50,878 nucleotides of DNA, from positions 1-50,878 of the forward strand of contig NZ_BLZO01000169.1 in assembly GCF_014132355.1 (NCBI RefSeq), given 5' to 3'. Origin of the DNA: Okeania sp. KiyG1 (GTDB lineage Bacteria > Cyanobacteriota > Cyanobacteriia > Cyanobacteriales > Microcoleaceae). Both the position numbers and the translations under genes were made by a program. The notes under the pieces were generated by a model. The model worked only from the letters and a program-made list of their open reading frames with translations, had not been told where the DNA came from and ran no database searches. Position 1 is the stretch's first letter; each line of letters starts with the position of its first letter. Positions 18,259-19,969 of the stretch are shown here, piece by piece.

Positions 18259-19158
18259 CTAATCATCCTTGGGGCCAAAAACCATCTGTACCACCATTTG
18301 TTTTCCGTCTGATTGATGATAGCGGTCTGCCCAATGTCTAATGATTTCGTCTAACTCTTCTTTAGCTTGCTCATAGCGGTCTGGAGAAATATCAAACTCC
18401 TCCAAAATACGCATTACATTATTGTTTTGTTCTGCCCAATCTCTCATCATACGGAAATAGCGAGCTGTATCCTCGACCATGATATAAGTGCGTTCCTCCT
18501 GATCTTCTGGGGAATAAGAAGATCGAGTTAGGGCATAAAAAGGCATTCCCCAAGGAGAATCCACCTTTGTAACCGTACCAGAATAAATCAAGCGACGTTT
18601 AATATGTTCTGCTAAAGCTTCACTCAGAGGCATTCGGCGTTCTGCTGGTAAATCTTCCTGAGACCGTCTGTGTAAAAACTCAATTAATTCCATAAACTGA
18701 AAAGAATTAATCAATTTGGCATCAGGCATATTAGGGGGCAGTTTAGTTTCAGTATATCGCTTTTCCTCAGTAGTAAGATTGTTACTAGGAACCCTTGATT
18801 GCCCAGGAGTCCAAGGATACTCTTCTAGCCACACATAGGGAAACTGAATCAAATAGCGAGGCTCTTGAGAACCCAACATTTTTAGTAGTTTACCTTTAGT
18901 GAGTGCTTCTTCTACTTCTTGCACAATTACTTTAACCCGTTTAGGTTCTATGTGATGCAGATGTCCTGTCATGCGCAGATTTTGATTTTGTTCAACATAG
19001 GTCATATAAATCGCACATTTAGCCGCAGTTGCAGCTGCATCCAAGAAAGCTCCATGACGATGCCCGCTCGTCCTCATAGCACTAAACGCCAGATATAACA
19101 TAATCTGATCCATAGCACTCGGGCTAAGGCTATTAATCAGATCGGTATCATTTTTCAT
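18259..19158 (-). CDS. hetR: heterocyst differentiation / pattern regulator HetR
   Basis: A DNA-binding homodimer that controls heterocyst patterning and, in non-heterocystous filaments such as Trichodesmium, is linked to specialised nitrogen-fixing cells. From ATG 19158 the protein has 299 residues. Known HetR positions fall exactly in register: Cys48 (AKCAIYMTY), Ser152 (INSFQFMEL), Ser179 (MPLSEAL) and Arg223 ([15 protein letters not shown]). This fixes the start four codons inside the longer open frame. [17 protein letters not shown] and [20 protein letters not shown] are nearly invariant in the family. An RGSGR-ended peptide gene (patX) lies 570 bp upstream in the same orientation. HetR's C-terminal domain binds such pentapeptides in heterocystous species. 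Confidence 0.97.
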
Positions 19159-19729
19159 TACAATCCCCAAAATAACAAAAACATAACAGGCATAGTATCA
19201 TCCTCTATTAAAAATTAAAAATATGCTAACAATGATGATACTTAAACAATAGAAAGTCAGCCAAATACAACTCTTGTGCCAAACAAATATACATCTTTGA
19301 GACGTCTTGGATTTGGCATAAGAGCAGGCACGCAAATTCAGCGTGCAAATAGTTTGTTATATTAGTAGATTTTGACACCCTGTGTACTTTTGACTGACAT
19401 ACATATATATATCAATTCTATATCAATATAGCATATAAAAGTACCATCGATCCCACTTATAGCAGTAGTATCAATGGTTACTAAAGTTAATAAACCATTT
19501 AGATTTTATGTTTTCTGTTAAAAGTTAAAGGTCTGAAGCTATATAGTTTAAATATCTAACAGCTTACTTTATGGTACTGAAAATAAAATTCTCTCATTCA
19601 TTAATTAACAAGAGAATTTTTGACAAATTTTCAGATATTTAAGATTGTCAAACCAAAGGCTCAAACTATTTGAGCAAAGATATAATTAAGAATTCAAACT
19701 TAATATCACAGGAGACATTTTTCTGAACC
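19159..19729. promoter_or_regulatory. patX-hetR intergenic region (hetR upstream region)
   Basis: 570 bp without a gene between patX and hetR. It must carry the hetR promoter. An exact promoter or NtcA site cannot be assigned by eye. A 10-bp-stem hairpin sits at 19585-19620. Confidence 0.5.
19585..19620 (-). terminator. hairpin downstream of patX, possible terminator
   Basis: A perfect stem AAAATTCTCT / AGAGAATTTT with a 16-base loop. On the minus strand it is followed by ATTTTC, so it could end the patX transcript before hetR. It is symmetrical enough to act on both strands. Confidence 0.5.
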
Positions 19730-19969
19730 TCAGCGTCCACTACCACGATGAGGACATTTGTCACTTTCAAGCTCAGAAGTACAAATTGTGTTTACAAAAG
19801 CTCGTATGCTTCTCTTTCTGACACGCTCGTCATGAGTTCTAGTTCGAGCAGAACCTCTGAAAAATGTAGAAGATAATGCTACTTCATTGTCAGTGATTAA
19901 AGCTTTGCTACTAGGAGCATTACCTAGCAATAATAAAAAGGAAAAAATAATCGCTGTGTAATTTTGCAT
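19730..19969 (-). CDS. patX: PatX: exported precursor ending in HRGSGR
   Basis: The 79-residue protein has a Sec-type signal peptide (MQNYTAIIFSFLLLLGNAPS, cleavage probably near SKA at 21-23). A basic middle part follows, and the extreme C-terminus is CPHRGSGR. RGSGR is the pentapeptide that inhibits HetR in heterocystous cyanobacteria. PatX is the described family of signal-peptide proteins with terminal (H)RG(S/T)GR found near hetR across filamentous cyanobacteria. Here it lies upstream of hetR on the same strand, which supports the call. An internal RGSAR at residues 38-42 is a near match to the same motif. Two cysteines (63, 72) lie close to the peptide. Processing and cell-to-cell signalling are inferred from the family. 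Confidence 0.92.
   Translation of the reverse strand: MQNYTAIIFSFLLLLGNAPSSKALITDNEVALSSTFFRGSARTRTHDERVRKRSIRAFVNTICTSELESDKCPHRGSGR

Follow-up and report, generated by a model that had tools for sequence, protein, structure and literature searches.

Background

The genes hetR and patX are described together across filamentous cyanobacteria, heterocystous or not, in papers of 2020, 2024 and 2025 (PMC7761841, PMC11298460 and PMC12756182, cited throughout from the available parts of their text). According to the first of these, which refers to a 2018 paper, in the time before heterocysts evolved hetR was "invariably accompanied by patX". The 2025 survey covers 474 genomes, with 237 HetR and 159 PatX homologues; in 12.0% of the genomes hetR was present and patX was not detected, and the two genes co-occur mainly in Nostocales and Oscillatoriales (PMC12756182). 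The same source reports that the Nostoc PatX hexapeptide HRGTGR inhibits HetR and that the peptidase PatP processes PatX. With an E. coli reporter, the PatP cleavage site was placed 27 residues before the motif and not at the hexapeptide (PMC12756182).

A structure of the HetR hood in complex with the peptide places the C-terminal carboxyl of the latter close to Arg223, and the residues of Anabaena HetR that contact the PatS hexapeptide and the operator are listed in the available text of that study (PMC4649674). A DIF1 motif is described in front of patS, patX and hetR (PMC7377430).

As for non-heterocystous species, overexpression of the Arthrospira orthologue (the A. platensis NIES 39 protein) is reported to block heterocysts in Anabaena (PMC7761841, PMC5812504). 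Both genes were deleted in the non-heterocystous Leptolyngbya BL0902, in a study that calls their role in such species a mystery and whose deletion transcriptomes suggest that the effects of PatX are basically independent of HetR (PMC11298460).

The patX-hetR locus

The window is the whole stretch of DNA analysed here, 50,878 nucleotides from Okeania sp. KiyG1. Okeania and Trichodesmium, to which its nearest relatives belong, are not known to form heterocysts. A preliminary description of the window had drawn attention to a complete regulator-inhibitor pair in an organism whose relatives form no heterocysts. Its observation is confirmed and its interpretation is partly supported; both genes, their conservation and the contact residues of HetR were established here. 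The pair is indeed complete and conserved; it is widespread and no anomaly, since its presence in a non-heterocystous host is expected from the papers that describe it across filamentous cyanobacteria. The features of the locus are the following.

18259..19158, minus strand: hetR, with ATG at 19158, encoding a 299-aa HetR with PF03574 and hood (PF18460) domains
19159..19729, minus strand: patX-hetR intergenic region, 571 bp
19730..19969, minus strand: patX, encoding a 79-aa exported-type small protein that ends in HRGSGR (open reading frame, NCBIfam match and alignment with 12 relatives)
19730..19747, minus strand: terminal RGSGR codons and stop codon of patX
19802..19816, minus strand: KRSIR segment of patX, at the place where Microcoleus-type PatX has RGSGR (multiple alignment)
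19901..19969, minus strand: hydrophobic N-terminus of PatX, residues 1-23, with a possible cut after SSKA (from the translation)
20000..20029, minus strand: promoter-type element TCCTGAT-N16-GTATCAG, about 60 nt upstream of the patX start (alignment of upstream regions)

Both genes lie on one strand, as had been described, the minus strand, and the gap between them, given earlier as 570 bp, is 571 bp.

HetR

The identity of the HetR encoded in the window is beyond doubt. The protein scored 599.8 bits against the NCBIfam equivalog NF009718 (cut-off 489), its two domains PF03574 and PF18460 were both over their cut-offs, and solved HetR structures align with it end to end. This hetR was the sole match to the HetR hood in the 10.98-Mb genome (E up to 0.001). 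The residues Cys48, Ser152, Ser179 and Arg223, said to be in register, are all four present in native numbering. When compared with the published list (PMC4649674, available text), the protein was found to have six of six residues in contact with PatS6 (E253, E254, D256, D270, D278 and R223) and all three in contact with DNA (R62, E71 and K73); D278, R62, E71 and K73 were located by counting along the HetR sequence. Against three relatives, hetR gave dN values of 0.021-0.031 and dS values of 0.142-0.235, with dN/dS about 0.13 to 0.15. In a tree of hetR DNA the gene groups with that of Okeania sp. SIO3B5 (support 100/97).

PatX

The translation of the patX reading frame starts with MQNYTAIIFSFLLLLGNAPSSKA and ends in CPHRGSGR followed by the stop, and the exact HRGSGR terminus reported earlier can thus be read directly in positions 19730-19969. 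The N-terminus is probably a Sec signal peptide, judging from its hydrophobic stretch and the conservation of the latter: the hydrophobic core is kept across the relatives in an alignment of 13 proteins. The only invariant positions in this alignment are M1, L12, L15, F58 and RGSGR. Pairwise rates against three Okeania loci (dN 0.042-0.093, dS 0.130-0.215, dN/dS about 0.3 to 0.65) show that PatX is a fast-changing protein under constraint.

Against the NCBIfam model NF047413 (heterocyst_PatX), the protein of the window scored 20.5 bits (E 0.00063, residues 1-79), missing the cut-off of 30. Five relatives of the Okeania/Trichodesmium clade, scanned singly, were all below this value (25.1, 25.2, 20.8, 19 and 11.6), while PatX of Arthrospira (36.4) and of Lyngbya aestuarii (45.4) passed it. 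At E up to 10, 12 of the 13 aligned proteins matched the model and one gave no match. The missed cut-off is a limit of the model and not a biological criterion; the protein was called a PatX orthologue on the basis of its position, motif, promoter element and alignment, and the model score was not used.

A search of the whole genome with a degenerate RGSGR-stop DNA pattern gave 7 matches, and 13 were obtained with the reversed control pattern. RGSGR followed by a stop is actually encoded at two of the seven, in patX and on contig C187. The latter was considered as a second RGSGR-ended gene and rejected, the match being out of frame inside a 177-aa open reading frame. Such a search had been suggested in the preliminary description, and with this pattern no RGSGR-ended protein besides PatX was found in the genome.

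The pair in near relatives

A scan of hetR loci covered 79 named loci from the best 80 of 307 candidates. In 52 of the 79 a short open reading frame with RG(S/T)GR was found on the hetR strand, upstream of hetR in 51 and downstream in one (L012). Of the 27 loci with no such reading frame, two have under 650 bp of sequence in front of hetR, and 11, from heterocyst-forming genera, fall together on the tree as a supported group. A separate profile search matched 38 of the 291 genomes of the order, and 26 of the 30 matches listed belong to the same family.

The 13 nearest named loci (L002-L014) all have an RGSGR-ended reading frame within 4 kb of hetR and on its strand. The gene is intact in ten of them and damaged, displaced or cut in L008, L012 and L013. 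This presence at all 13 loci, together with the HetR score and the rarity of RGSGR-stop in the genome, makes the pair more than a chance find. The comparison with Trichodesmium and Okeania loci, also proposed earlier, revealed that the gene order and the terminal RGSGR are common to most. In Hydrocoleum sp. CS-953 (L008:2381-2767), the mature part of patX is duplicated in tandem. Its first copy terminates immediately ahead of the motif, which leaves a stop codon between signal peptide and RGSGR. In Trichodesmium MAG_R02 (L012:7055-7153), the RGSGR-ended reading frame downstream of hetR is devoid of a hydrophobic core, an arrangement due to rearrangement, decay or assembly error. At the third locus (L013), the contig ends within the gene.

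Other arrangements were observed along the scan. Two loci have two different tandem patX-like reading frames upstream of hetR (L017:1771 and 2678; L018:2321 and 3118), one with RGSGRREF and the other with RG(S/T)GRYD. Microseira wollei and two related genomes (L043:3181, L063:3139 and L069:3035) carry RGSGR-ended reading frames upstream of hetR that have no obvious signal peptide and are more PatS-like in form. In a Pseudanabaenales MAG (L076:159-569), a PatX-like reading frame upstream of hetR contains three copies of RGSGR and resembles a multi-copy peptide (pheromone) precursor.

Position of the motif

Many PatX proteins of Microcoleus and Tychonema type carry the motif internally, as PERGSGRR-x-F..., and end in a tail of some 9 to 25 residues. 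The proteins of Okeania, Trichodesmium, Hydrocoleum and the named Arthrospira end exactly in RGSGR and have KRSIR, EGTPR or a comparable segment at the internal place; in Lyngbya aestuarii BL J, both places carry an exact RGSGR. The KRSIR of the window may therefore be viewed as a possible remnant, that is, a decayed older motif, and, judging from such alignments, the C-terminal motif looks like a derived state. A strict need for the exact end is weakened by near-terminal forms, in which HRGSGR is followed by three residues (the Arthrospira-like L109) or the motif by four (L053 and L080).

A profile was built from 16 reading frames with ERGSGRR, a subset of the internal types, and its alignment passes through the old motif place in 6 of the 13 terminal-type proteins. 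When the middle of each protein was shuffled 100 times, this happened between 0 and 2 times. Of the 13 proteins, five outscored all of their 100 shuffles; for each of the other eight, between 1 and 30 of 100 shuffles did as well or better. For the window protein the alignment breaks off ahead of the motif, at profile position 51, and its score was reached by 2 of 100 shuffles. On these two counts the internal remnant is not significant in this protein itself, and the case for it here rests on the relatives.

Over the 52 rows counted of an 80-row hetR DNA tree, at least 7 switches between the terminal and the internal state are required; this count leaves out 28 rows (the 27 loci with no motif reading frame and the triple-motif L076), scores Lyngbya aestuarii as terminal and gives no direction of change. 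The label "relocated", set by hand for the terminal-copy loci L002-L014, L016 and the window, requires 2 changes and does not form one clade, so that a single origin is not shown. Planktothrix loci with no motif reading frame stand beside Arthrospira and Lyngbya, and the Arthrospira-Lyngbya fork is unevenly supported (99/35). Among the eleven "other terminal" loci are some unusual forms: L062, which is very short, and the three mentioned above that have no obvious signal peptide (L043, L063, L069). The terminal forms L037, L040, L054 and L060 are nested among internal forms, and their motif is most simply explained by tail loss.

Taken as a whole, the motif may have been mobile: a second, C-terminal HRGSGR would have arisen and the internal one decayed in the Okeania/Trichodesmium and Arthrospira/Lyngbya groups, with tail loss in some Microcoleus-type proteins. 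This reading is tentative and we give it less than even weight, as the case for it is lowered both by the terminal-copy group not being one clade and by the three extra residues of L109. If it holds, it would suggest that selection has repeatedly favoured a peptide with an uncut C-terminal end, whose free carboxylate faces Arg223 of HetR. Given the short distance between that residue and the peptide carboxyl in the published complex (PMC4649674, available text), a terminal motif would spare cuts on one side. No mention of the motif shift or of the spared cut was found in the available parts of PMC7761841, PMC12756182 and PMC5812504; the 2018 PatX paper may contain it. The shift offers a concrete test of peptide maturation, with one-sided cuts expected in terminal forms and two-sided cuts in internal ones.

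Upstream and intergenic DNA

The TCCTGA of the promoter-type element upstream of patX is one base off the DIF1 motif TCCGGA, and an exact TCCGGA is located 559 nt upstream of the gene. In the 2018 PatX paper the DIF1 motif is reportedly placed within 69 nt upstream of patX. The patX-type copy of the element was found once per genome in all six genomes of the genus, and the copies of the five other genomes are identical to those of the Okeania loci L002-L006. Its pattern gave 17 matches in the six genomes, against 1 for the reversed control, and 6 of the 17 are patX-upstream sequence. Other genes sharing the element were also considered. Two of the three further matches in the genome of the window were examined, and both were discarded for lying inside reading frames.

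One NtcA-like site, GTAN8TAC, is present 323 nt upstream of hetR. A scan of the 700 bp upstream of hetR in seven relatives revealed such a site in only two, which makes it weak evidence. The HetR-binding-type repeat GGGN5CCC was found neither between patX and hetR nor within 900 bp upstream of patX; at the two HetZ-related loci described below it gave a single match, downstream of the gene. Divergently from patX, at 20905-21432 of the window, lies a reading frame that by eye resembles an adenylylsulfate kinase, and what appears to be the start of the same gene is seen upstream of the patX-like reading frame of L012.

Nitrogen fixation and related genes

The search for nif genes, suggested as a check in the preliminary description, brought to light a nif cluster in the genome of the window. 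In it nifH, nifD, nifK and nifN are over curated cut-offs, and nifB, nifS, nifU and nifX-like reading frames were read by eye. For nifE the cut-off was reached on a 371-residue piece, the frame being broken before the last part. The gene is split on contig C144 (L096:15721-17159) into a 371-aa reading frame and a following one in another frame; in a cluster that otherwise looks full, the break is due either to a sequencing error or to a real mutation. All six genomes of the genus contain nifH. The nif genes make a link between the patX-hetR pair and nitrogen fixation more plausible.

Two HetZ-related proteins are encoded in the genome. The first scored 654.8 bits against NF037964 and 487.9 against the heterocyst-type HetZ model, whose cut-off of 550 was not reached; the second scored 596.8 bits against NF037965. 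The HetP family had no match in the genome. This result and the presence of HetZ in related forms only were counted against the explanation that we prefer, as were the PatX model score under its cut-off, the distance of the published PatP site from the hexapeptide and the BL0902 transcriptomes.

Proposed working of the pair

The locus is most probably an ordinary PatX-HetR regulator-inhibitor pair of an Okeania-type, nif-bearing, non-heterocystous filament, in which the HRGSGR of exported PatX limits the output of HetR. It is supported by the HetR equivalog score, the conserved contact residues, the match to the PatX model along the whole protein, the RGSGR-ended reading frames of the near loci, the constraint on both genes, the promoter-type element and the published effects of Arthrospira PatX and of the Nostoc hexapeptide. 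For export, processing, binding to HetR and the effect on DNA, this proposal follows the work on Anabaena and Nostoc. By analogy, PatX would be exported and trimmed by a PatP-type peptidase, with a cut in front of its last six residues. The resulting HRGSGR would be transferred and bind the HetR hood, and the bound HetR would be released from its DNA operators, limiting HetR output in the cells that receive the peptide. Since the motif ends the protein, PatX would have to be cut on the N-terminal side of it alone, and the stop codon would supply the free carboxylate. Given the nif cluster, it is plausible that the HetR output concerns nitrogen-fixing cells; the breakage of filaments and growth are other candidates.

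This last point could be taken further, by assuming that the pair belongs to a programme for diazocyte-like, nitrogen-fixing cells. Such an assumption concerns the output of the pair and is compatible with the explanation just given. The nif cluster, the nifH of every genus genome and the NtcA-like site in front of hetR speak for it; the scarcity of that site among relatives, the missing HetP-family match and the interrupted nifE of the assembly weigh on the other side, and we find it rather doubtful. The pair could also be a relic, retained and no longer functional, as the damaged patX of Hydrocoleum CS-953, with its stop before the motif after the tandem duplication, and the Trichodesmium MAG gene devoid of a hydrophobic core might suggest. 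This is very improbable, since the pair is intact in the window and in 10 of the 13 nearest loci, both genes are under constraint when compared with three relatives, and the promoter-type element is conserved.

A different possibility is that both genes are functional and that PatX works mainly by some other route, such as the cell envelope or another receptor, the inhibition of HetR being minor or conditional in non-heterocystous species. In strain BL0902, there are two gene groups for which PatX opposed HetR, and in these the double mutant behaved like the patX mutant and unlike the hetR mutant (PMC11298460, available text). Together with the transcriptomes of that strain, this calls for caution, as PatX may act largely without HetR. 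Against such a route, RGSGR and the HetR residues that contact it are conserved together, and the motif is retained somewhere in PatX while the remainder diverges fast; we consider it unlikely. The persistence of the motif at either place in a fast-changing protein is what is expected if the motif itself is selected, and inhibition of HetR by the peptide remains our preferred reading.

The pair is known in kind, and its modest interest comes chiefly from the motif shift and from the nif genes of the same genome. A nif-bearing Okeania-type genome close to Trichodesmium is useful for testing whether a tie between the pair and nitrogen-fixing cells predates heterocysts.

Comparison with known systems

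PatX of Nostoc/Anabaena PCC 7120 (asl2332) is likewise a small exported-type protein with RG(S/T)GR, and its HetR partner has the same contact residues. In contrast to that strain, the host of the window is no heterocyst former, the motif is HRGSGR instead of HRGTGR, and patX adjoins hetR. Leptolyngbya sp. BL0902, also a filament that forms no heterocysts, resembles the window in its patX-hetR region, in front of which a DIF1 promoter is predicted; it differs in that deletion mutants have been made, and these suggest that PatX acts basically independently of HetR (PMC11298460, available text).

In Arthrospira, whose PatX is named "PatS" in the older paper, the host is non-heterocystous and patX lies upstream of hetR, as in the window. 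The protein of the Arthrospira locus L016 likewise ends exactly with the motif and has an altered segment at the internal place. The identity between the two PatX proteins is 33%, however, and L109, from a related genome, extends three residues past the motif. The patX-hetR loci of Trichodesmium and other Okeania differ in the gap, which ranges from about 0.5 to about 2.6 kb, and in the order found in L012, but they have the same gene order as the window, with the terminal RGSGR in most.
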